Part shown: piece by piece, positions 4,626-36,502 of the stretch
Layout: every line of letters begins with the position of its first letter
How positions within the stretch are numbered: the first letter of the stretch is position 1
NCBI RefSeq assembly: GCF_001428305.1
Contig: NZ_LMRZ01000004.1
Coordinates: 510,446-574,445 of the forward strand
Origin: Janibacter sp. Soil728
Lineage (GTDB): Bacteria > Actinomycetota > Actinomycetes > Actinomycetales > Dermatophilaceae
Direction: 5' to 3'
DNA: 64,000 bases
The notes under the pieces: generated by a model
Seen by the model: only the letters and a program-made list of their open reading frames with translations
What the model was told of the DNA's origin: nothing
Databases searched by the model: none
Program-made: the position numbers and the translations under genes

Positions 4626-5231
4626 ATGACGTCTACTCCCGTTGAGATGTGGTTCGACCCGCTGTGCCCCTGGGCCTGGATGACCAGCCGCTGGCTGATG
4701 GAGGTCGAGAAGGTCCGCGACATCGAGGTCACCTGGTCGCAGATGAGCCTGTCCGTCCTCAACGAAGGGCGGGACCTCCCCGACGAGTACCTCGATCTGA
4801 TGCAGCGCGGCTGGACCCCCGTGCGGGTCATCGCCGCGGCGCGCAAGGCACACGGTGACGAGGTCACCAAGCCGCTCTACGACGCGATCGGTACGCGCAT
4901 CCACCTGGAGGGCGAGAAGGACTTCCGCGCCGTGACCGCGGCCGCGCTCGCCGAGGCCGGCCTGCCGGCCGAGCTCATCGAGGCAACGGACACCGACGAG
5001 CACGACGCCTTCCTGCGTGAGAGCCACGACCGAGCCATCGATCTCGTCGGCGACGACGTGGGTACCCCCGTGATCTCCGTGGAGGGCATCGCCTTCTTCG
5101 GTCCCGTCGTCTCCCCGGCCCCGAAGGGGGAGGCCGCCGGTCGCCTCTTCGACGGCTGCGTCCTCGTCGCCGGCACGGACGGATTCTTCGAGCTCAAGCG
5201 CACTCGCACCCGCGACCCGATCTTCGACTGA
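4626..5231 (+). CDS. DsbA-family mycothiol-dependent nitroreductase-like protein
   Basis: A 201-residue thioredoxin-fold protein of the DsbA/2-hydroxychromene-2-carboxylate isomerase type, matching the actinobacterial group that includes the mycothiol-dependent nitroreductase Rv2466c. The active-site region DPLCPWAWMTSRW (residues 11-23) keeps the first cysteine of the CPWC motif, but Ala replaces the second, so a monothiol mechanism with mycothiol as partner is more likely than dithiol exchange. A cis-Pro segment (VGTPVISV) lies near residue 142. There is no signal peptide, so it is cytoplasmic. It is followed after 17 bases by rpiB and probably shares its transcript. The family is certain; the physiological substrate is not known from sequence. 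Confidence 0.88.
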   Translation: MTSTPVEMWFDPLCPWAWMTSRWLMEVEKVRDIEVTWSQMSLSVLNEGRDLPDEYLDLMQRGWTPVRVIAAARKAHGDEVTKPLYDAIGTRIHLEGEKDFRAVTAAALAEAGLPAELIEATDTDEHDAFLRESHDRAIDLVGDDVGTPVISVEGIAFFGPVVSPAPKGEAAGRLFDGCVLVAGTDGFFELKRTRTRDPIFD

Positions 5232-5248
5232 GAGAGAGCACAGACCAC

Positions 5249-5716
5249 ATGCGCGTCCACATCGGTGGCGACCACGCCGCCTTCGAGCTCCACCAGGAGC
5301 TGCTGACCTTCCTCGCCGACGAGGGCCACGAGGTCACCGACCATGGCCCCTTCGAGTACGACGCCGTCGACGACTACCCGGTCTTCGTCATCCGCACCGC
5401 CCAGGCGGTCGCGGCCGACCCGGGTAGCCGCGGCATCGTCCTCGGAGGGTCCGGCAACGGCGAGCAGATGGCGGCCAACAAGGTCGCCGGGATCCGAGCA
5501 GCCCTGTGCTACAACGCTGATCTGGCCAAGCTTGCCCGCGAGCACAACGACGCCCAGGTCCTGTCCATGGGCGGACGCATGCAGCCCGTCGAGGAGTCCA
5601 AGGAGATGGTGCGGGTCTTCCTCGCCACCGACTTCACCGGCGAGGAGCGTCACCAGCGCCGGATCGACATGGTCAGCGCCTTCGAGGCGGACGGTACGGT
5701 CCCGCCGCTGCCCTGA
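5249..5716 (+). CDS. rpiB: Ribose-5-phosphate isomerase B
   Basis: Interconverts ribose-5-phosphate and ribulose-5-phosphate in the non-oxidative pentose phosphate pathway. It is 155 residues. The phosphate-binding GGDHAAFELHQEL near residue 6 and the LGGSGNGEQMAANK loop near residue 69 identify the LacA/RpiB family. The glutamate in GNGEQ, in place of the cysteine of E. coli-type RpiB, is the known mycobacterial-type catalytic base, so the missing cysteine is not a defect. GAGAGAG precedes the ATG. A strong terminator follows, closing a two-gene unit with the nitroreductase-like gene. Confidence 0.95.
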   Translation: MRVHIGGDHAAFELHQELLTFLADEGHEVTDHGPFEYDAVDDYPVFVIRTAQAVAADPGSRGIVLGGSGNGEQMAANKVAGIRAALCYNADLAKLAREHNDAQVLSMGGRMQPVEESKEMVRVFLATDFTGEERHQRRIDMVSAFEADGTVPPLP

Positions 5717-5757
5717 GCGGGTACCGGCAAGTAACCAAAAGCCGGATCAATACCACC

Positions 5758-5793
5758 GAGAGACCCGCCGTGAGGGAGTACGGCGGGTCTCTC
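5758..5793 (+). terminator. Rho-independent terminator after rpiB
   Basis: A perfect 13-bp stem (GAGAGACCCGCCG at 5758-5770 and CGGCGGGTCTCTC at 5781-5793) with a 10-base loop and a short T-tract (TTT) directly after it, 41 bases downstream of the rpiB stop. Confidence 0.9.
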
Positions 5794-5888
5794 TTTCGTT
5801 ACAACCCTTCCCCCACGGGCGAATTGGTGCTTATGGTGCGGCTACGTCACCACACGGTGACGGTGACGACGGACCGGGGAGATCGAGC

Positions 5889-6974
5889 TTGTCAGCCATC
5901 CTGCCCAGCCGGTTCCCCTCGTGGGCCGAGCGACGCTGGTTGCCGCGGACCCTTCCCGTCGTCGAGGGCCTGCCTCTCCTGGTCATCGTGCTCGTGGCCA
6001 CTGTCGCCATCACCTCCGCCCACCACGCGTGGCCCCTGAGCGTCCCGCTCGTGGCGCTCATCCCTCCGTGCCTCGTGGTGACCATGCTGTGCCCCATCCG
6101 CGAGGTGTGGGTCGTCTTCGGGCTCGTCCTGTCCTATGTGGCCTTTGTCGCGCTGACCTCGAGCGACGGGATCGCCCGGCAGCTGCCGCTCCTGGTCTCG
6201 ATGGGGCTCATGTACGCGCTGGCGGCCTCGCGCGCCCGACACGGTGCCGCAGCCTTCGCGGGCAACCGGATGCTGGGCGACCTGCGCACCCGGCTGCTCA
6301 AGATGGGTGAGATCCCGACACTGCCGACCGGGTGGCACGCGGAGCGGTCCTTCGCCACGGCCCACGGCAATGCCTTCGCCGGGGACTTCAACGTCACCTC
6401 CCGCAGTCGCTGCGGCCGCACCCTCGAGATGGTGCTCGCCGATGTCAGCGGCAAGGGGCAGGAGGCGGGCACCCGCGCGCTCGTGCTGGCCGGGGCGATC
6501 GGTGGCGTCATCGGGTCGACCGAGCCGGAGCAGGTGCTCCCGATGGCCAACGACTTCCTCGAGCGCGACGGCTGGGACGAGGGCTTCGCCACCGCGGTCC
6601 ACGTCTGCCTCGACATGACCACGGGGGAGGCCGCCGTCTCCTCGGCCGGTCACCCGCCGGCCATGCACTACGACGCGGGCTGCGGTCGCTGGTCGGCTCT
6701 GGACGAGGTCCGTGGCCCCGCCCTCGGCTTCGTCGCCGGCGCCGCCTACCCCACGGCTCGCACGGTGCTGCACCGCGGCGATGCGCTGCTCATCTACACG
6801 GACGGCATCATCGAGTCCCGAGCCCGTGACCTCGACGACGGGATCGACTGGATGCTCGGGGAGGCCGAGTCCCGCGTCTCGCAGGGTTTCTCCGGGTTGG
6901 TCAAGCGCCTGGTGGCCGGCGGACGAGCCGGTGACGGGGACGATCGCGCGGCCGTCCTCATCTGGCGCGACTGA
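5889..6974 (+). CDS. Membrane-anchored PP2C/SpoIIE-type serine phosphatase (RsbU-like)
   Basis: Probable protein serine/threonine phosphatase acting on an anti-sigma-factor antagonist, by family analogy with SpoIIE/RsbU. From TTG 5889 it is 361 residues. The start is chosen because GGGGAG lies seven bases upstream and hydrophobic coding begins there. Residues about 20-110 form four or so membrane segments. The C-terminal domain has the PP2C metal-binding blocks: GDFNV, LADVSGKGQEA, ATAVHVCLDMTTGE, SAGHPPAM, and IYTDGIIE with DDRAAVLI near the end. No partner STAS or anti-sigma gene is next to it, so its target is unknown. It stands between the rpiB terminator and trmB. Confidence 0.85.
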   Translation: MSAILPSRFPSWAERRWLPRTLPVVEGLPLLVIVLVATVAITSAHHAWPLSVPLVALIPPCLVVTMLCPIREVWVVFGLVLSYVAFVALTSSDGIARQLPLLVSMGLMYALAASRARHGAAAFAGNRMLGDLRTRLLKMGEIPTLPTGWHAERSFATAHGNAFAGDFNVTSRSRCGRTLEMVLADVSGKGQEAGTRALVLAGAIGGVIGSTEPEQVLPMANDFLERDGWDEGFATAVHVCLDMTTGEAAVSSAGHPPAMHYDAGCGRWSALDEVRGPALGFVAGAAYPTARTVLHRGDALLIYTDGIIESRARDLDDGIDWMLGEAESRVSQGFSGLVKRLVAGGRAGDGDDRAAVLIWRD

Positions 6975-8463: not shown

Positions 8464-9750
8464 TCAGGTGAAGAGGGCCTGGCCGATGTACTCGCCCTCG
8501 CCGGCTCCCGGGGGGACGGCGAAGAGGGCGGACCCGGTGAACTTCAGGTACTCCATCATGGCGTCGTTCTTGGCCATGGCGTTCTGCATCGGGATGAACT
8601 GCGTGGCCGGGTCGCGCACGTAGGCGAGGAAGAACAGACCAGCGTCCAGCGTCCCGAGGTCGGTCGACCCGTCCACGAAGTTGTAGCCGCGGCGCAGGAT
8701 GCGCGCTCCGTGGTTGTGGTCGGGGTGGACGACGGCGACGTGCGAGTCCTTGGGCACGACCGGTCCGCCCCGCCCGGGCATCGCGAAGTCCGGGTCGTCG
8801 TGCTCCTGCCCTCCGGACAGGGGGGCGCCGCTGTCCTTGGTGCGGCCGATGAGCGACTCCTGCTCGCCGAGCCCCTGCCGGTCCCAGGTCTCGATGACCA
8901 TGTTGATCCGGCGCACGGCGAGGTAGGACCCGCCGGCGAGCCAGTCGCCACCGTGGTCGTCGGGCTGGACCCAGACGTGCTCGTCCAGTGCCTTCGCCTC
9001 CTCCACCAAGATGTTCTTGGTGCCGTCCTTGAAGCCGAAGAGGTTGCGCGGGGTGGCCTGGCCCGCTGTGGTGCTGGAGGTGCGGCCGAAGCCCAGCTGG
9101 GACCACCGCACCGACACCGTGCCGAAGCCGATGCGCGCGAGGTTGCGGATGGCGTGGACCGCCACCTGGGGGTCGTCGGCGCAGGCCTGGATGCACAGGT
9201 CACCCCGGCTGCGGGCCTGGTCGAGCTGGTCGCCGGGGAAGTGCGGCAGGTCCTTGAGGACGTCGGGCTGACGGCCCCCCAGGCCGAAGCGGTCCTTGCC
9301 CTCCTCGTCGGCGAACAGTCCGGGGCCGAACCCGAAGGTGATCGTCAACCGTGACGGAGGCAGGCCGATGGCCTCGCCGGTGTCGTCCGGCGGCAGTCGG
9401 TAGTCGCCCTCCACGGGCCCGATCGGTCCGGCCGGTCCGCCGTCCATGAGCCGCTCGGCGGCGAGGGTCCACTCCTTCAGCAGGGAGATCAGCCGTGCCC
9501 GCGATGTCGTGGTGACGTCGAAGGCCGCGAAGTGCAGCCGGTCCTGGACCGGCGTCGTGATCCCCGGCTGGTGGGCACCACGCAGCGCGAAGGGGGAGGG
9601 GGGCGCCCCCTTCGTCGGTTCGGCAGCCGTGGCCCGACCGGCGGTGAATCCACCGGCGATGCCGATGGCCGAGGCCACCGCCCCGGTCCCGATCATCGCG
9701 CGTCGCGACGGGCCGAAGGAGGTGCTCTCGCTGGTCTCGTCCTCGGTCAC
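8464..9750 (-). CDS. efeB: Dyp-type haem peroxidase/deferrochelatase EfeB, Tat-exported
   Basis: Third component of the EfeUOB ferrous-iron uptake system; the extracytoplasmic haem enzyme is thought to oxidise Fe(II) or strip iron from haem. It is 428 residues from GTG 9750, overlapping the efeO stop by four bases (GTGA). The N-terminus has a twin-arginine signal (SRRAMIG followed by an Ala/Gly-rich hydrophobic stretch, about residues 16-42). The Dyp signatures are GFKDGTKNI with the distal Asp, and the proximal-haem region VHPDHNHGARILRRGYNF. It is last in the efeU-efeO-efeB operon; no convincing terminator follows before 8341. Confidence 0.95.
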   Translation of the reverse strand: MTEDETSESTSFGPSRRAMIGTGAVASAIGIAGGFTAGRATAAEPTKGAPPSPFALRGAHQPGITTPVQDRLHFAAFDVTTTSRARLISLLKEWTLAAERLMDGGPAGPIGPVEGDYRLPPDDTGEAIGLPPSRLTITFGFGPGLFADEEGKDRFGLGGRQPDVLKDLPHFPGDQLDQARSRGDLCIQACADDPQVAVHAIRNLARIGFGTVSVRWSQLGFGRTSSTTAGQATPRNLFGFKDGTKNILVEEAKALDEHVWVQPDDHGGDWLAGGSYLAVRRINMVIETWDRQGLGEQESLIGRTKDSGAPLSGGQEHDDPDFAMPGRGGPVVPKDSHVAVVHPDHNHGARILRRGYNFVDGSTDLGTLDAGLFFLAYVRDPATQFIPMQNAMAKNDAMMEYLKFTGSALFAVPPGAGEGEYIGQALFT

Positions 9751-10910
9751 ACGACCGCCGCCGTCAGCTTGGACAGGGGCTCGGACAGCGCGTTGACCGC
9801 GTCGGAGAGGGCCTTGACCTCGTCCTTGGTCAGGTCGGTGTAGGAGACGAAGCCGTCGCCCTCCTTGTGCTGGTCGAGCAGCTTCTGCAGCGCGGCGAAG
9901 CGGGTGTCGAGCTGCGTGGCCAGCTCCTTGTCGCCCTTGGCCACGAGGATCGGTCGCACGCCGTCGTAGCCGACCTTGGCGCCGTCGACATTGGCCTGGA
10001 AGTCCCACAGGTCGGTGTGCGACCAGATCTCCTCCTCGCCGGTGACCTTGCCCGTGGCGACCTCCTCGAGCAGGCCGCGGGAGCCGTTGGCGATCTGGTC
10101 GATGGTGAAGGTCATCTTCTGGATGCGCGTGTCCAGGGTCGTGGTGTTCTTCAGCAGGTCCTGGCCGTAGGTCTTGCGCTCCGTGTCGGTGAGCGCGGTG
10201 TAGTCCTTGGCCTCCTGCGGCCACAGGTCCTTCTCGATGCGGTGCCAGCCGGTCCACTTCTGCCCGGGCTCGAGGTCGGCCTCGCGGGCGTCCATCTTGG
10301 GGTCGAGGTCGCCGAAGGACTCGGCGACGGTCTCGATCCGCTCCCAGTGCACCCGGGCCTTGGCGTAGAGGTCGCGGGCCTCCTCGTCCTTGCCGGCCTC
10401 GTAGAGCTGGACGAACTTCGTGGTCTTGGTGAGCAGCTGGTCGGACTGGTCCTTGACGTACGCGGCGTAGTTGGTCTGGGCCTGCTCGACGCTGGCCTGG
10501 TCGCCGGCGTCGACGGGGGTGTCGGACTTCGCGACGGTGAAGTCGGCGCGGATGCCCTCGCCCTTCATGCCGGGCTTGCAGGCCGTCGAGTAGGACCCGG
10601 CGGGCACGTTGACGACGAGGTCCCGGGAGAGCTGGGGCCCGATGTTCTCCACCTCGCCGACGATGCGCAGCCCGTCCTCGCCCAAGAGGTAGAACTCCGT
10701 GACCTTGCTCCCGGAGTTGGTGACCGTGAAGGTCACCGGACCCGCAGGGACCTCGGTGCTCGAGACCTCGCAGGCGTCGTCGGTGGAGGTGACGGTGACC
10801 GTCCCGTCACTGCCGTCGGCTCCCGTGCTGGGGGAGTTGCTCGTGCACGCGGCCATCGCGGGTACGAGCAGGGCGAGGCTGGCGGCGGTGGCGAGGTGTC
10901 GCAGGTTCAT
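9747..10910 (-). CDS. efeO: Iron uptake lipoprotein EfeO (cupredoxin plus M75 domain)
   Basis: Surface iron-binding component that passes iron to the EfeU permease. It is 387 residues. The signal ends in a lipobox (VPAMAAC, Cys about 22), so it is lipid-anchored outside the membrane. Residues about 35-130 are the cupredoxin-like domain (ACEVSSTEVPAGPVTFTVTN, CKPGMKGEG). Residues 145-387 form the M75/imelysin-like domain with the HxxE motif HRIE in WTGWHRIEKDLW. ATG 10910 is chosen because the signal begins there. Downstream of efeU after 41 bases; efeB overlaps its stop. Confidence 0.95.
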   Translation of the reverse strand: MNLRHLATAASLALLVPAMAACTSNSPSTGADGSDGTVTVTSTDDACEVSSTEVPAGPVTFTVTNSGSKVTEFYLLGEDGLRIVGEVENIGPQLSRDLVVNVPAGSYSTACKPGMKGEGIRADFTVAKSDTPVDAGDQASVEQAQTNYAAYVKDQSDQLLTKTTKFVQLYEAGKDEEARDLYAKARVHWERIETVAESFGDLDPKMDAREADLEPGQKWTGWHRIEKDLWPQEAKDYTALTDTERKTYGQDLLKNTTTLDTRIQKMTFTIDQIANGSRGLLEEVATGKVTGEEEIWSHTDLWDFQANVDGAKVGYDGVRPILVAKGDKELATQLDTRFAALQKLLDQHKEGDGFVSYTDLTKDEVKALSDAVNALSEPLSKLTAAVV

Positions 10911-30459: not shown

Positions 30460-31248
30460 TCAGGCCGACGAGAACGAGGCCCGCCGTGCCGCGCGGCGCA
30501 GCGAGGCGAGGATCGGGCGGCCGGTCACCGCGATGAGCACGACATTGGTCACGGCGCGCACGAGGTCCCAGCCGAGCGAGGTCGCCAGGTCGAAGGCGAG
30601 GAAGCGCGTGAGGTTCTCCGCGATCGGTGCCCCCGCGACGAAGCTCAGCGCCTGCTCGCCCTGGACGGTGAAGGGCCAGAAGGAGAAGTTGAGTGCCGCG
30701 CCGTAGAGCAACCCGCTCACTGCGCCGTAGGCGCACAGCAAGACGATCTCGGTGGCGCCCTTCGTCCGGGGGAGCAGGCCGGCGCCGAGGCCGACCCATG
30801 CCGCCGCCAGCATCTGGAACGGGAGCCACGGGCCCACCCCTGCCGTGATGAGCGCGCTCGAGGCGAGAGTCGTCGCACCCAGCACGAAGCCGAAGCCGGG
30901 ACCGAAGACCCGGCCGGAGAGGATGAGCAGGAAGAAGACCGTCTCCATCCCCGCGGTCCCCGCACCAAGGGGCCGAAGGGCGGCGCCCACCGCCGAGAGC
31001 ACGCCCAGCATCGCCACCGCCTTGGTGTCCAACCCGCCGTCACTCACCTCGGCGAGCACGACGGCGAGCACGCCGATGAGGATCGCCGCGAAGACGAGCG
31101 GGGCGTCGCCGGAGTGGGACAGGCCGCTGTCCGGCGAGACGAAGAGGGGCCACAGGAAGGCGAAGAGACCCGCGATGCTCGTGATCGCGATGGCCACGAC
31201 GGCACGCGGCCGCAGCTCGATCGCCGTCCGCCGGGGGCTGACGCTCAT
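30460..31248 (-). CDS. ECF transporter S component, predicted corrinoid-specific
   Basis: Substrate-binding membrane subunit of an energy-coupling factor importer. It is 262 residues with about six hydrophobic segments; SLGWDLVRAVTNVVLIAVTGRPIL near the C-terminus and an Arg-rich end resemble S components that precede EcfA/EcfT partners. The family alone does not set specificity. The cobalamin riboswitch upstream of the operon argues for cobalamin or a precursor. Its ATG overlaps the EcfA stop by ATGA, indicating tight coupling. Confidence 0.82.
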   Translation of the reverse strand: MSVSPRRTAIELRPRAVVAIAITSIAGLFAFLWPLFVSPDSGLSHSGDAPLVFAAILIGVLAVVLAEVSDGGLDTKAVAMLGVLSAVGAALRPLGAGTAGMETVFFLLILSGRVFGPGFGFVLGATTLASSALITAGVGPWLPFQMLAAAWVGLGAGLLPRTKGATEIVLLCAYGAVSGLLYGAALNFSFWPFTVQGEQALSFVAGAPIAENLTRFLAFDLATSLGWDLVRAVTNVVLIAVTGRPILASLRRAARRASFSSA

Positions 31249-32870
31249 GCGGTCGGCCTCCCGACGGCAGCCCTGACGGCGGCGACCGTCAGCAGCGGTG
31301 CGGGTGCGAGGACCTTGGCGACCTGCGGTGCGAAGGCCGGCGAGGAGGTGACGACGTCGGCCGTCGGTCCGTCGGCGATGACCTCGCCGTCGGCCATGAC
31401 GACCACCCGGTCGGCGGCCTCCGCGACGAACTCGACGTCGTGCGTCGACAGCAGAACCGTCCGCCCGCGCTCCACCAGAGCACGGAGTGCGCGGGTGAGT
31501 GCCGACTTCGCGGTGTAGTCCAGGCCCCGCGTGGGCTCGTCGAGAAGGAGGACCGGGGGGTCGGCCGTCAGCTGGATGGCCAGCACGAGAGCGAGGCGCT
31601 GCCCCTCGGACAGGTCACGGGGGTGGCGATCAGCAGGGACGCCGGGCGCGATCTCCTGGAGCAGCGCCGCACAGGTCCCGGCACTCACATCGGCGTCGAC
31701 GTCCGCGCGCTCGCACTCGCCACCGACCGTCTCGAGATAGAGCAGGTCGCCGGGGGTCTGCGGGACGAGCCCGACGACCGTGCGTCGCACCGCGGGCCCG
31801 AGCTCGGCGGGGTCGGCGCCGTCGACGGACACGCTGCCGGCTGCCCGCTGACCCGAACCCTGGAGTGCCCACATCAGTGAGGACTTGCCGGCGCCGTTAC
31901 GGCCCATGAGGGCGGAGATGGTCCCCGGCCGAAGGGTGAGGTCCACGTCGTCCACGGCGACCAGCCGGCCGTGGCGGACGCTCACTCCCTTCGCCTCGAG
32001 GCCACCCGGCTGCCCCGGCGGCACTGTGGGAGGGGGGACCTCACCGATCTCCCGGCGAAGGGGGCCCGCCGCGCGTCGTGCGTCGCGCACCGACAGCGGC
32101 AGGGGGGACCACCCGGCCCACCGGCCGAGCTCGACCACCGGCGGCGCCACGCTCGAGGTGACCATCATCTGCGCGGGAGGTCCGTGCTCGACCCGCCCGT
32201 CGACGACGTGGATGACGGAGTCTGCGTGGTGGATGACCCGCTCGATGCGGTGCTCGGCGACGATGACGGTCGTCGAGAGGTCGTGGACGAGCCGGGAGAT
32301 GGCGGCGAGGACGTCCTCGGCAGCCGTCGGGTCGAGCGCGGACGTGGGTTCGTCCAGGACGATGACCTGCGGGTGCTGGGTGAGCACGGCGCCGATCGCC
32401 ACGCGTTGCTGCTGCCCACCGGACAGGTCACGCAGCGGGGCATCGCGCAGATCGGCGATGTCCATGACGTCGAGGACCTCCTCGACGCGACGGCGCATGG
32501 TCTCCGGGGGCAGCCCGAGCTGCTCCATGCCGTAGGCGAGCTCGGCCTCGACCGTCTCGGTGACGAACCCGGCCAGCGGGTCCTGACCGACGACGCCGAC
32601 GACATCGGCCAGGTCCCGCGGACGGTGGGTGGCGATGTCGCGGCCTGCGACGAGGACCCGTCCCCGGAGGTGGCCGCCGGTGAAGTGGGGGACGAGACCG
32701 TTGATCGCGCCCAGCAGCGTGGACTTGCCCGAGCCGGTGCGCCCGACGACGAGGGCCAGCTCACCCTCCTCGATGCTGAGGTCGACATGTGCCAGCGCGG
32801 GGGAGTCGTTGCCGTCGTAGGTGATCGTGACGTCCTCGAAGAGGACGGTGGGTGCGGACGCCCAGCTCAC
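31245..32870 (-). CDS. ECF transporter ATPase, fused EcfA1-EcfA2
   Basis: A 541-residue protein with two ABC domains in one chain. Domain 1 has Walker A GRTGSGKST (about 43-51), signature LSGGQQQR and VIVLDEPTSALD. Domain 2 has GRNGAGKSS (about 330), the divergent signature LSEGQRLAL and VLLLDEPTRGLD. Fused ATPases are known in actinobacterial ECF systems. GTG 32870 overlaps the EcfT stop (GTGA). It powers the importer with EcfT and the S component; one dedicated set here suggests a group I-like, single-substrate transporter. Confidence 0.92.
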   Translation of the reverse strand: MSWASAPTVLFEDVTITYDGNDSPALAHVDLSIEEGELALVVGRTGSGKSTLLGAINGLVPHFTGGHLRGRVLVAGRDIATHRPRDLADVVGVVGQDPLAGFVTETVEAELAYGMEQLGLPPETMRRRVEEVLDVMDIADLRDAPLRDLSGGQQQRVAIGAVLTQHPQVIVLDEPTSALDPTAAEDVLAAISRLVHDLSTTVIVAEHRIERVIHHADSVIHVVDGRVEHGPPAQMMVTSSVAPPVVELGRWAGWSPLPLSVRDARRAAGPLRREIGEVPPPTVPPGQPGGLEAKGVSVRHGRLVAVDDVDLTLRPGTISALMGRNGAGKSSLMWALQGSGQRAAGSVSVDGADPAELGPAVRRTVVGLVPQTPGDLLYLETVGGECERADVDADVSAGTCAALLQEIAPGVPADRHPRDLSEGQRLALVLAIQLTADPPVLLLDEPTRGLDYTAKSALTRALRALVERGRTVLLSTHDVEFVAEAADRVVVMADGEVIADGPTADVVTSSPAFAPQVAKVLAPAPLLTVAAVRAAVGRPTA

Positions 32871-33994
32871 GGGTGGCTCCCTTCGGTCGTGGTGATGCGT
32901 CGCGCCCGGTCGCGCTCGCGGGTGAGCGGGGGCGCCGGGGTGAGGACGGCGGGCAGGATCGCGACGAGCAGGCCCAGCGTGAGCAGCCACGGCAGCGGCG
33001 GCGGGCCGATGGGTGACAAGGGCATGGTGAGCGTGCTCGGCTCCCAGTGTGCGCTGGCGAAGGCAGCCAGGGCGGCGAGTACCCCGCACAGGGCGGTGAT
33101 CGTCTCCGGCAGCCGCCAGGGGGAGGGGCGGTAGGTCGTCCGCGAGACGGCGCTCGACCCGCTGGCCAGACCGAGGGCGCCCAGGAGCACGCCGAGCAGC
33201 AGCAGGGGGAGGCCGACCCACTCGGGGCTCGAGGTGTCGAGGATCCCGTAGCTGCCGACGGCCATGCCGAGCAGCCCCCCGAGGGTGAGCGCGCCGGTCG
33301 TGCGGTGCCGGGCAGGGGAGGTCTCGCCGCGCCGGCCGTAGCCTCGAGAGTCCATCGAGGCGGCCAGCGCCATCGACCGCTCGAGAGTGTCCTCGAGGAC
33401 CGGCATCGCCACCCGTGCGACGGCGCGCAGCCCTCGGGCGCCGTCGCCGCGCAGGAGCCGTGCCCGGTGCACGCGACGGGCGGACTCGGCCAGCTGCGGG
33501 GCGACGCTGATGGCGACGACGATCGCGGTCCCGATCTCCTGCAGGGCTCCCGGGAGGGCGGCCAGCAGCCGCTTGGGGTCGGCCAGTGCATTGGCAGCGC
33601 CGACGCACAGGATCATCGCCGCGAGACGCATCCCCTCGAAGAGCGCGGCCAGCAGACCCTCGAGCCGCAGGTCACCGAGCAGGTTGATCCCGGCCGCCCA
33701 GCTCGGCAGATCGATCTCGGGCAGCGGCAGCAGGAGCACCTCACCCCACTTGAGCCCGACGAGCACGTGCAGGACGAGCCGCAGGGCGATGATGAAGCCG
33801 CCGAGCACCGCGTAGAGCGTGAAGGCGCGCGCCCACGGTGAGTCGGATCGCCGAGCCATGACGACGAAGGTCACCGCTGCTGCCGCGAGCAGCAGCACGA
33901 GCGGGTTGGTCGTCTGCGAGACCGCCACCGCGAGTCCGATGGCCCAGAGCCACCAGGCCCCGGGGTGCACGGCTCGCGGTGTCGAGGAGGGCAC
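32867..33994 (-). CDS. ECF transporter T component (EcfT/CbiQ family)
   Basis: Transmembrane scaffold linking the S component to the ATPases. It is 375 residues with TM segments near 12-60 and 95-130 and a further cluster at the C-terminus. The coupling helices are visible as ARLLRGDGARGL and SMALAASMDSRGYGRRG, matching the Ala-Arg-Gly signatures that dock in the ATPase grooves. The C-terminal 130 residues with extra hydrophobic segments make it longer than typical (about 260). GTG 33994 starts eight bases after the stop of the secreted DUF4430 gene. Confidence 0.88.
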   Translation of the reverse strand: MPSSTPRAVHPGAWWLWAIGLAVAVSQTTNPLVLLLAAAAVTFVVMARRSDSPWARAFTLYAVLGGFIIALRLVLHVLVGLKWGEVLLLPLPEIDLPSWAAGINLLGDLRLEGLLAALFEGMRLAAMILCVGAANALADPKRLLAALPGALQEIGTAIVVAISVAPQLAESARRVHRARLLRGDGARGLRAVARVAMPVLEDTLERSMALAASMDSRGYGRRGETSPARHRTTGALTLGGLLGMAVGSYGILDTSSPEWVGLPLLLLGVLLGALGLASGSSAVSRTTYRPSPWRLPETITALCGVLAALAAFASAHWEPSTLTMPLSPIGPPPLPWLLTLGLLVAILPAVLTPAPPLTRERDRARRITTTEGSHP

Positions 33995-34002
33995 GAAGGG
34001 GG

Positions 34003-34962
34003 TCAGTGTCCCCGGCGTCGTGCCATGGCCAGGGCGCCGCCGCCGAGGACGACGAGCAGACCGCCGCCGATGGCGGTGGGCACGAGCGCCCCACTGCCGG
34101 AGTCGGACTCGGCTCCCGCCGCACGGGTGGTCTCGCCCGCGGGGGCCGAGGTCGAGGTGCTGGAGACCGTGGGTGAGGAGGAGGACTTCCTCTCCCTCTC
34201 GGCATCGGTCCTCTCGGCCTTCGCCTTGCGTGCCGCGGACTGCTTCGCCGCGGCCGACTTCTCCTCGGCCTTCTTGGCTTCCGCCTTCTTCTCGGCTGCC
34301 CTCGTGGCCGTGGCCCGCTGCGCTGCCGACGGCTTCGCAGAGTTCTTCGCCGTGCTGGTGGTCGAGGGCGCGCTGCTGGCCGTCGCGTCCGCACCCGTCC
34401 GCGGGGCCGTGGCGCCGGCGCCCGTCGAAGCCTTCGGCGCAGCGGTGCGGCTGGCGCTCGGGCGGGGGGTGGCGCTGGCGGTGGGCCCGGCCGTCGGCTT
34501 CGGCGCGGCAGAGGTGGGCGCGGGGGCCGGGGGCGGCGCCACGCTCGGTGAGGCTTGGGACCCCAGTCGGAAACCCACTGCGCTGCCCGGTGCCGGGTCA
34601 TACAGGTAGATGCCCGAGCTGGAGTACTGCCACGTGCCACCCGCAGCCGCGTGGTGGAAGGCCCAGTAGTTGTCGGCCGGAGGCATGCGACCACAGGAGA
34701 TGTTGGGCAGCCCGTTGATCTTGCAGACGGCGCCGGGCTGGTTCTGCACCCGCTCGACGGAGAATCCGGCGGACTCCAGAGCGGCGCCAGCCGTGGAGGG
34801 ATCCCCCGGGGCGCAGCGCACGTCGGTCGACGAGGCACTCTGCACCACGACGGTCACCCCGCTCGTGCCGCTGCATCCTGCTGCTTGGGCGGGGGTGGAC
34901 TGGACCAGCGCGCTCCCCGCGAGGAGCGCGCCGAGGCCCAGGCCGGCGAGCAGTCGCCGCAT
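34003..34962 (-). CDS. Secreted, membrane-anchored DUF4430 (transcobalamin-like C-terminal) protein
   Basis: A 319-residue exported protein. Signal peptide residues 1-27. Residues about 29-135 form a DUF4430-type domain, the family that includes the C-terminal beta domain of vertebrate transcobalamin and intrinsic factor; the block CKINGLPNISCGRMPPADNYWAFHHA with paired cysteines is the signature. About 150 residues of Ala/Pro/Ser/Thr then Lys/Glu/Ala-rich linker follow, including a likely coiled coil near 215-250. A TM segment and ARRRGH tail close the protein, so the domain is tethered outside. Start and stop of the previous gene overlap (TGATG). With the upstream alpha-barrel protein it probably forms a corrinoid-capturing pair. 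Confidence 0.85.
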   Translation of the reverse strand: MRRLLAGLGLGALLAGSALVQSTPAQAAGCSGTSGVTVVVQSASSTDVRCAPGDPSTAGAALESAGFSVERVQNQPGAVCKINGLPNISCGRMPPADNYWAFHHAAAGGTWQYSSSGIYLYDPAPGSAVGFRLGSQASPSVAPPPAPAPTSAAPKPTAGPTASATPRPSASRTAAPKASTGAGATAPRTGADATASSAPSTTSTAKNSAKPSAAQRATATRAAEKKAEAKKAEEKSAAAKQSAARKAKAERTDAERERKSSSSPTVSSTSTSAPAGETTRAAGAESDSGSGALVPTAIGGGLLVVLGGGALAMARRRGH

Positions 34963-36266
34963 CAGCGCACCCGCACGGCAGCCCGGCGACGGGCCACGAG
35001 GGTCAGACCGAAGGCGAGCAGGCCGGTGCCCGTCCCCAGGACCCAGAACGGGGTGCGCGACGTGACGCCGTCGGTCTGGACGACCGCGGGGATCTCGGGC
35101 TGTGCGACCGGCTGGTCCGTGACCGCGTCGCCGCTGTCACCGGAGTCGGTGCCGGCGTCCGTGTCGGAGCCGGCGTCCGTGCCGGTGTCGGCGTCCGTGC
35201 CGGTGTCGCCGCCCGGGGCGGGCGCGGCGCAGTCGGTGGTGGGCGTGGCCGCGCCCTGGCCCGCAGAGGTGACCGTGGCATAGGACTGATCGGTCCGGCC
35301 GAGCAGGGCCTGGGTCGTCGAGCGGGTGATGGTGCCATCGGGCGCTGCCTCGGCCCCCTTCGCCACGGCAGCGTCGAAGTCGGCCTGGTTGTAGGCGACT
35401 GCCCCGACGAGCGCGGGGGTGTCGCACCCGAAGGTCAGCGCCTCGAGGTAGGCGAGGGCCTGCGTCCTGGCGCCGTCGCGCCCGGCGATGCGCAGCGCGG
35501 TCGCCGCCAGCCCGGTGCTGTTGGCATTGGTGCCCTCGGTGGTCGCACCGCCGCCGATGCCGCCGCTGCCGTCCTGACGACCCTCGAGGTAGTCGGCAGC
35601 GGACTGGACCTGCGCGTCGTGGCCGCCGACGAGGTCGAGGGCCTGGACCGCGGTCGAGGTGGCATCGGGGTCGGAGACGCACCCGTCCTTGAAGTCGAGG
35701 CTGAAGCCGCCGTCGTCGCACTGCTGCGCGAGCAGGAAGTCGACGGACGCCGGCGTGGGGTTGGTGCCGGCCCGCTCGAGACCGATGATCCCGAAGGACT
35801 GGCCCAGGGTGTTGGAGTAGTCCCCGTACTGGGACTGGTCGACGAACTGGCCGTTGTCGGCCTCGAGCGAGCGCTGCTGCGCGACGAGGTCGACGCCGCC
35901 GACCGAGTGGGGGTCCAGACCGCGGGCGCTGGCGAAGGTCAGCAGCTTGCCGGTGGCCGCGGAGTAGATCTCGTCGCCGGAGCCGTGGTAGGAGCCGGCG
36001 TTGGCGACGATGTAGTCGGTGGCCGCAGCCGAGACGTCGCCCGCCGTGCCGGTGGCCGACATGGCCAGGACCGCGTCGATGGTCAGGCCGAGGTCGTCAT
36101 AGGACTGTCCGCCGGAGGAGACGACGAGTCGGTTGCCGCCCGCGTCGAGCTGGCTGGCGAGGTAGGCGACGGAGTCGTCGGGGCTGGCGGCCGAGGCGGC
36201 GGGAGCCAGGACGAGCCCGGCGACGCCGACCGTGGCGGTAAGGGCGAGCGAAGGCAGGGAACGCAT
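34962..36266 (-). CDS. Secreted, anchored alpha-alpha-barrel protein like the alpha domain of intrinsic factor
   Basis: A 434-residue exported protein and first gene behind the cobalamin riboswitch. Signal peptide residues 1-27. Residues about 28-345 show the helical repeats of prenyltransferase/squalene-cyclase-like alpha-alpha barrels, the fold also used by the N-terminal domain of vertebrate intrinsic factor and transcobalamin: repeated TSTAVQALDLVG, GLAATALRIAG and QSFGIIGLERAG helices separated by Gly-rich QxxDGGFS and DGSGGIGGG turns. A low-complexity Thr/Asp/Gly linker (about 350-385) leads to a TM segment and RRRAAVRVR tail. AAGG lies ten bases before ATG 36266. Corrinoid binding is inferred from riboswitch and fold. 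Confidence 0.85.
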   Translation of the reverse strand: MRSLPSLALTATVGVAGLVLAPAASAASPDDSVAYLASQLDAGGNRLVVSSGGQSYDDLGLTIDAVLAMSATGTAGDVSAAATDYIVANAGSYHGSGDEIYSAATGKLLTFASARGLDPHSVGGVDLVAQQRSLEADNGQFVDQSQYGDYSNTLGQSFGIIGLERAGTNPTPASVDFLLAQQCDDGGFSLDFKDGCVSDPDATSTAVQALDLVGGHDAQVQSAADYLEGRQDGSGGIGGGATTEGTNANSTGLAATALRIAGRDGARTQALAYLEALTFGCDTPALVGAVAYNQADFDAAVAKGAEAAPDGTITRSTTQALLGRTDQSYATVTSAGQGAATPTTDCAAPAPGGDTGTDADTGTDAGSDTDAGTDSGDSGDAVTDQPVAQPEIPAVVQTDGVTSRTPFWVLGTGTGLLAFGLTLVARRRAAVRVR

Positions 36267-36359
36267 CTGTGGCGACCTTTCGGGTGGACCGTTGGTCTTG
36301 ACCCGGGCGCGGAGTGCGTCGGGCTCGACCCGTTGTCCTCGACGGGTTGTGGTGGAGCC
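36267..36359 (-). other. Riboswitch expression platform and leader
   Basis: Between the aptamer and the ATG there is a small hairpin (ACCCGT/ACGGGT, around 36331-36350) but no T-run. Control at the level of translation is therefore more likely than transcription termination, as in other actinobacterial cobalamin leaders. Confidence 0.5.
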
Positions 36360-36451
36360 TCGCGATGTCTCAGGTGCTCCGGCTTGCCGACGAGCGGCTC
36401 ACGGTTGCGGGACAGCGCCGGAATTGCACCGGCTTCCCCTGAGGATCGCGA
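36360..36451 (-). ncRNA. Cobalamin (B12) riboswitch aptamer
   Basis: On the minus strand the conserved core is plain: GGGGAAGCCGGTGCAATTCC, followed by GGCGCTGTCCCGCAACCGTGA and then a B12-box variant (AAGCCGGAGCACCTGAGAC). The P1 stem closes with TCGCGAT (36451-36445) against ATCGCGA (36366-36360), and CTCAG pairs with CTGAG inside it. It controls the alpha-barrel/DUF4430/ECF operon, which should be repressed when cobalamin is sufficient. Confidence 0.95.
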
Positions 36452-36502
36452 CTGCCTCGCGGCAGTGCTGTCGTCATGCTACCCCGGGGCTACACTGGGC
36501 CA
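36452..36502. promoter_or_regulatory. Overlapping divergent promoter region of the corrinoid operon and ileS
   Basis: Minus strand: TTGGCC (36496-36501) and TAGCAT (36474-36479) 16 bases apart fit a promoter for the B12 operon. Plus strand: TACACT at 36491-36496 fits a -10 for ileS with a start near 36503. The two promoters would overlap. Confidence 0.45.

Follow-up and report, generated by a model that had tools for sequence, protein, structure and literature searches.

The alpha domain of B12 carriers belongs to the alpha/alpha-toroid superfamily, and the composite binding site of intrinsic factor was reportedly studied by Fedosov in 2005. The DUF4430 domain has been described as the C-terminal region of the vertebrate B12 carriers (PMC4350170; papers are cited by PubMed Central number and represented by the accessible portions of their text). 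For bacteria, Burroughs et al. (2007) predicted B12 capture by transcobalamin-like SLBB domains and alpha/alpha toroids encoded beside CbiO/CbiQ, and mention stand-alone SLBB proteins as well as operons with two extracellular SLBB proteins, possibly forming complexes (PMC1796856). Among energy-coupling factor (ECF) importers, transport of B12 has been demonstrated for ECF-CbrT of Lactobacillus delbrueckii (PMC5997447), pathway tables make use of CbrUVT (PMC8123684, PMC6593275), and acI actinobacteria, hosts without B12 synthesis, have an ECF module behind cobalamin riboswitches that is predicted to import B12 (PMC5301498). The identification of transporters for B12 and its precursors in gut-microbiome genomes is regarded as an open problem (PMC6593275). 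Here we describe a riboswitch-preceded operon for two secreted proteins, P1 and P2, and an ECF importer (components T, A-A and S) in a 64,000-nucleotide stretch of contig NZ_LMRZ01000004.1 of Janibacter sp. Soil728. This whole stretch is called the window, and coordinates are positions in it.

This is a real conserved operon whose most likely role is corrinoid import with the help of two external capture proteins; a two-chain clamp formed by these proteins is plausible. The initial annotation, made from the sequence only, had proposed that P1 and P2 close over a corrinoid and hand it to S. Since its main idea was published in 2007 (PMC1796856), it is a rediscovery, except for the two-chain split. 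The novelty would lie in the two-chain form found in actinobacteria and in an ECF importer that is supplied by external capture proteins. In the literature searched, no description of the two-chain arrangement was found and no experimental study of the operon was recognised (most subscription papers were outside its coverage).

Operon parts and predicted folds

All parts lie on the minus strand in the order riboswitch, P1, P2, T, A-A and S, and the initial annotation had both their coordinates (30460-36452) and the list of parts right. The cobalamin riboswitch aptamer (RF00174, 36373..36438, minus strand), located 106 bases upstream of P1, scores 36.2 bits against a gathering cut-off of 31.5 (E 1.5e-5, model positions 46-168 of 189), in agreement with the element originally proposed. 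Promoter and terminator scans around it found nothing, and the folding of the leader RNA was not unusual (z -1.21). P1 and P2 have 1 base in common, and 4-base overlaps join T to A-A and A-A to S. P2 and T are 8 bases apart, therefore overlap is not universal among the operon genes, and the description of a single overlapping operon holds except at this junction.

P2 (34003..34962, minus strand) is a protein of 319 amino acids, predicted to be secreted and C-terminally membrane-anchored. It has a signal-like N-terminus, one transcobalamin-type beta-grasp domain (residues 28-137, approximately), a long low-complexity linker and a hydrophobic segment at 293-311; by fold and profile-profile comparison it would be the beta-domain counterpart. 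Three cysteines are invariant among 50 sequences, and a fourth, first in order, is found in 48 of them. The beta-grasp domain was modelled over residues 24-140 (34543..34893, minus strand) with a predicted local distance difference test (pLDDT) of 80.7 and a predicted template-modelling score (pTM) of 0.77. In VIA, the top 15 entries (Z 9.9-10.6, root-mean-square deviation 2.7-3.0 over 94-96 residues; next entry 6.4) were exclusively the beta domains of transcobalamin, haptocorrin and intrinsic factor and the Ruminococcus protein 3u7z. Ranks 1-19 of Foldseek were likewise B12-carrier beta domains or 3u7z. These comparisons of the model support the transcobalamin/intrinsic-factor beta-domain fold for P2.

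The DUF4430 domain that had been ascribed to P2 was not recognised by Pfam: PF14478 was matched neither by the window P2, nor by any of 20 aligned members, nor anywhere in its own genome, and the suggested check with this family was negative. The profile-profile comparison did recover the relationship. A profile of 30 Pfam-recognised actinobacterial DUF4430 domains aligned with the P2 family profile (49 sequences) colinearly and over nearly the full length, with a probability of 89.6 and a score of 36.2; the maxima of 60 column shuffles were 1.7 and 15.7, and the other four operon profiles reached a probability of at most 0.3. Against the Protein Data Bank (PDB), the full-length P2 profile retrieved low-complexity or unrelated chains alone, and the domain profile retrieved no chain at E <= 10. 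The DUF4430 assignment of P2 is based on profile-profile, fold and fusion evidence, not on Pfam.

P1 (34962..36266, minus strand; 434 amino acids) is, by family profile and fold, an alpha/alpha-toroid protein, predicted to be secreted and C-terminally membrane-anchored, and would be the alpha-domain counterpart. Its N-terminus is hydrophobic and signal-peptide-like, and a hydrophobic segment at 407-425 is followed by RRR. A hydropathy scan, in which P1 looks exported, found a hydrophobic segment at each terminus of P1 and of P2, seven segments in T and five in S; as predictions, secretion and membrane anchoring of both proteins agree with the original claim. The toroid nature of P1 is likewise borne out. 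A profile from 50 aligned toroids matched squalene-hopene cyclase (E 2e-24), and the predicted model is confident (pLDDT 96.3, pTM 0.93). The window P1 gave a weak toroid signal in Pfam (E 0.0057, below cut-off), Prenyltrans was matched by 13 of 20 members at E <= 0.1 (best 1.3e-4), and the Streptomyces fusions L065 and L077 (L-numbers denote fetched loci, G-numbers genomes) exceed the Pfam cut-offs for toroid families. The nearest named family is NCBIfam SCO2321, matched by 48 of the 50 members at E <= 0.001; the window P1 scores 105.9 bits, short of its cut-off of 300.

The likeness of P1 to transcobalamin is less specific. Foldseek placed terpene cyclases on top and rat transcobalamin at rank 17 (E 8.1e-5); in VIA, cyclases scored Z about 25 and no transcobalamin was among the 50 matches listed. 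The suggested check with PF01122 gave no match for the window protein (E <= 1) or for 20 members (E <= 0.1), and among six related proteins this family was seen in L078 only, below cut-off (E 0.057). Transcobalamin was not among the sequence-profile matches of P1 at E <= 10, and single-sequence PDB searches with P1 and P2 gave nothing useful. P1 is therefore a toroid, although a transcobalamin type could not be demonstrated. Thus, of the proposed correspondence to the vertebrate alpha and beta domains, the beta-domain fold of P2 and the toroid of P1 stand, but no special alpha-domain likeness of P1 emerged, and the single-protein models gave P2 the B12-carrier beta fold but ranked cyclases above transcobalamin for P1.

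Since terpene cyclases are its best fold and sequence matches, P1 could be a secreted enzyme or a structural toroid outside ligand capture, with the corrinoid handled by P2 and the ECF components alone. Class II terpene cyclases carry the DxDD acid motif. In the alignment of 50 toroids, D199 is present in 50 and D201 in 44 sequences, but position 202 is A in 40, T in 5, G in 3 and S in 2. Because the fourth DxDD position is never Asp, a class II terpene cyclase role was set aside. In addition, P1 looks exported, adjoins the P2 domain or is joined to it in one chain, and comes first behind the riboswitch. A role of P1 outside ligand capture is considered very unlikely.

Some P1 relatives (L036, L040, L079 and L063-L077) end with sortase-like signals (LAQTG, LAFTG, LPPTG, LAGTG, LASTG). 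The same position in the window P1 (tail 34962-35100) and in 8 same-genus P1 proteins reads VVQTDG, perhaps a variant wall-anchoring signal.

The complete ECF transporter named in the initial annotation was found in full, with T, A, A and a dedicated S in one operon. T (32867..33994, minus strand) belongs to the CbiQ family (PF02361, 48.3 bits, cut-off 25). The A-A ATPase (31245..32870, minus strand) carries two ABC domains on a single chain (PF00005 twice, E 4e-50), the ECF_ATPase models staying under their cut-offs. The window S (30460..31248, minus strand) had no Pfam match at E <= 1; PF12822 (ECF_trnsprt) was matched by 31 of its 39 aligned members at E <= 1 (best 1.4e-10), and judging from these relatives S is assigned to the ECF S components. 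CbiM was absent from the 14 families matched by the 39 S members. Against PDB, the window S gave one weak, unrelated match (E 0.04) and the S profile no chain at E <= 10. Mean column identity was higher for S (63%, 39 sequences) than for the P2 domain (47%) or the toroid (43%), the latter two from 50 sequences each; the sets differ. The operon is flanked by ileS (plus strand) on one side and a NUDIX/DUF4916 gene on the other.

Conservation and natural fusions

A search of 58 genomes, namely that of the window and others of its genus, family and order, detected the toroid gene in 18. All five parts were present in 17 of 19 family loci with wide flanks (L024-L042), and a cobalamin riboswitch at or above the Rfam cut-off precedes 12 of these 17. 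L034 and L039 have the toroid without the other four parts, and L043, which starts inside P1 at a contig end, was left out of the count. L025 (G012) was counted among the 17; here about 1.2 kb (9422-10641) interrupts P1 in the signal-peptide region, the riboswitch and the other four genes being retained.

Across the class, the toroid profile matched in 110 of 197 genomes at E <= 0.001, the weak matches probably including other toroid proteins. A scan of 32 loci from named genomes, several of which are contigs of the first set and many others of which end at a contig or flank edge, showed a P2-type domain in the same stretch in 24 and all five parts in 14. All five were also present in 18 of 20 wider loci chosen across the class (mostly strong matches), the remaining L152 and L161 being cut by contig ends; for this reason the five-part set is not a product of chance. 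The five genes stay together across Actinomycetia. In L159, the toroid lies on the opposite strand. Solitary toroids in L069, L071, L074 and L076 are preceded by an alpha-amylase family gene, and the solitary toroid in L039 (contig shared with L069) has its own cobalamin riboswitch.

As originally stated, P1 and P2 are separate chains, encoded by distinct genes in the window; elsewhere they are neighbours or fused. A P2-type domain and a toroid share a single open frame in seven loci (L063, L065, L070, L075, L077, L079 and L150), always with the beta domain first. In L062, L063, L067, L070, L075 and L077 (Streptomyces/Kitasatospora), a toroid/P2-type pair precedes a second toroid and P2-type set, and ECF genes come next in every stretch that extends far enough (that of L070 does not). 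In L063, L070, L075 and L077, a P2 domain is fused to the second toroid protein, and two toroid matches were seen in L063, L070 and L077.

Nine DUF4430 loci from other Actinomycetota lineages, taken among strong matches, were also compared. In L170, L171 and L174, a Pfam-recognisable DUF4430 protein takes the place of P2 with T, A-A and S, the toroid standing at the end. L168 contains DUF4430, T, A-A and S up to the contig end, L166 and L167 gave matches for DUF4430, A-A and S only, and L165, L169 and L173 have DUF4430 genes and no T, S or toroid match. A strong cobalamin riboswitch lies further upstream in L168, L170 and L171; none reached the cut-off in L165, L166, L167, L173 and L174. An apparently exported protein of about 850 amino acids is encoded upstream of the DUF4430 gene (L170:9300-11951, L171:5933-8494, L168:4061-6646), directly behind the strong riboswitch in all three loci, and its counterpart in L174 (9281-11230; 649 amino acids) is cut by the contig end. 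The L171 protein, the one scanned, contains a PQQ-type beta-propeller and DUF5719-like repeats, reminiscent of BtuG, the B12-capturing beta-propeller of Bacteroides.

Cargo and host B12 metabolism

CbiC/CobH (PF02570) was used as a marker of the corrin-ring pathway in 37 toroid-bearing genomes, 35 of which show all five genes and two of which are cut by contig ends. The marker was absent in 15 of the 37, although its absence from G498 counts little because this genome is 78% complete. B12-dependent methionine synthase (MetH) is present in 14 of these 15 marker-less genomes, and all 15 carry, on the toroid's strand and closely preceding the toroid, a cobalamin riboswitch match (E <= 0.001); the riboswitch and toroid matches are no more than about 600 bases apart (in G569, the riboswitch lies 61 bases ahead of the fused frame). 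This riboswitch is above the Rfam cut-off in eight genomes and below it in seven; in six it was the sole riboswitch match found (not all first-look candidates were scored). The riboswitch and the marker-less genomes therefore favour corrinoid over cobalt import, and the corrinoid import proposed in the initial annotation gains from both.

An importer of cobalt for B12 synthesis, with T and A being CbiQ/CbiO-like and the secreted proteins serving something else, would be consistent with a T of the CbiQ family, with a host that seems to make B12 and with the riboswitch control known for cobalt importers (PMC3766115). It does not fit the lack of the corrin-ring marker in 15 of 37 toroid-bearing genomes, the lack of a CbiM match for S or its relatives, or a P2 with the B12-carrier fold. 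Cobalt import was rejected mainly on the marker-less genomes, MetH and the operon riboswitches, and is highly improbable. A non-corrinoid ligand of the beta-grasp/toroid pair would be in line with the several soluble ligands thought to be bound by the beta-grasp superfamily (PMC1796856), but is hardly credible given a cobalamin riboswitch upstream of 12 of 17 family operons at the Rfam cut-off and of the operon in 15 of 15 marker-less genomes at a looser one.

In the window genome, three further riboswitches above the cut-off precede cobN with bluB-cobT; cobaltochelatase, cobO, cobBC, cobA and cobS; and a FecCD/Peripla_BP_2 importer, for which the nearest models (F420-0 and BtuC types) were under their cut-offs. 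Judging from its gene content, this genome probably makes B12 itself. Given B12 synthesis and a second importer, the need for the operon is not obvious, and it is no simple scavenger. Where the host makes B12, the operon may save it the expense of synthesis or import another corrinoid. Behind cobN, L082 encodes a fused BluB-CobT protein (5121-6866).

It is possible, though unlikely, that the same machine takes up a corrinoid precursor or a non-B12 cobamide (cobinamide, cobyrinic acid diamide, pseudo-B12) as a complement to the second importer. Two riboswitch-controlled importers in the same genome would suit this, CbrUVT is listed for cobyrinate diamide uptake (PMC8123684), and ECF-CbrT also transports cobinamide (PMC5997447); the present evidence does not separate one corrinoid from another.

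From the observed parts and their order, the riboswitch, the predicted folds, the conservation, the natural fusions and the presence in marker-less genomes, we infer the ligand, the closure of P1 on P2 and the transfer to S, and suggest the following mechanism, which we consider rather probable. The cobalamin riboswitch would repress the operon. P1 and P2 would be exported, with their C-terminal helices tethering both to the outer face of the membrane. They would form a two-chain clamp, the corrinoid being held between the toroid mouth and the beta domain, as in transcobalamin. The clamp would pass its cargo to the dedicated S component, and T and A-A would drive it across the membrane. The chances seem evenly balanced for a more specific proposal, namely that the separate toroid and beta-grasp halves close only with corrinoid present and bind substrate externally for an ECF importer. 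They would then be an unfused relative of the animal carriers, of which streptomycetes and a few others have fused beta-toroid forms.

Several points weigh against this mechanism. ECF S components bind their substrate unaided, and external proteins are not required in principle. The window genome has CobN, BluB-CobT, CobO, CobBC, CobS and CbiC, as well as another riboswitch-controlled importer (FecCD/Peripla_BP_2). By fold rankings, P1 fits terpene cyclases better than transcobalamin. The DUF4430-P2 profile link is weaker with the roles exchanged (probability 72.9, score 30.2) and had a probability of 66.4 with the first, smaller alignment (n = 20). Streptomyces/Kitasatospora account for five of the seven fusions, and the one in L079 matches the P2 profile partially (60 of 108 columns, E 2e-5); P2 matches are also weak and partial in L163 (E 8e-6) and L164 (E 3e-6). 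In L034, L069, L071, L074, L076 and L078, the fetched stretch contains a toroid copy but neither P2 nor ECF genes. Finally, five same-genus genomes, all carrying CbiC and MetH, have no P1 match.

Comparison with known carriers and importers

If the proposal is true, the operon offers a concrete, expressible bacterial system for studying the halves of a transcobalamin-like carrier apart, and gives a case of external capture proteins working for an ECF importer, a class where S is held to be substrate-binding. It would also identify an import system for actinobacteria that use B12 while seemingly unable to make it.

With ECF-CbrT (PMC5997447) and CbrUVT the operon would have in common an ECF importer for B12-type cargo, but here there are an own S and two external capture proteins. 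The acI module (PMC5301498) is likewise actinobacterial and riboswitch-controlled; secreted capture proteins are not mentioned in the accessible part of that paper. Surface capture of B12 before import would be shared with BtuG of Bacteroides (PMC6143338), which is a seven-bladed beta-propeller lipoprotein, whereas the folds here are different.

A further comparison is with the operons of Burroughs et al. (PMC1796856), as far as the accessible text describes them. The domain pair, the kind of operon and the predicted role in B12 scavenging are all alike, and an SLBB protein, a toroid and CbiO/CbiQ occur together here too. In contrast to those operons, the toroid is a separate chain, the hosts are Actinomycetia, a riboswitch and S are documented, and B12 synthesis seems to be present in some hosts. 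The Burroughs-type host is usually without key enzymes of B12 biosynthesis, whereas the window genome has CobN, CbiC and others, and 15 of 37 genomes are without CbiC.

Vertebrate transcobalamin, haptocorrin and intrinsic factor (PDB 2bb5, 4kki, 2pmv) are similar in the beta-domain fold of P2, in the toroid partner and in secretion. PF14478 does not reach P2, nor PF01122 P1, and P1 is not closest to transcobalamin. Moreover, the vertebrate carriers are single chains with the alpha domain first, whereas the system described here consists of two membrane-anchored chains, and the seven bacterial fusions have the order beta-alpha.

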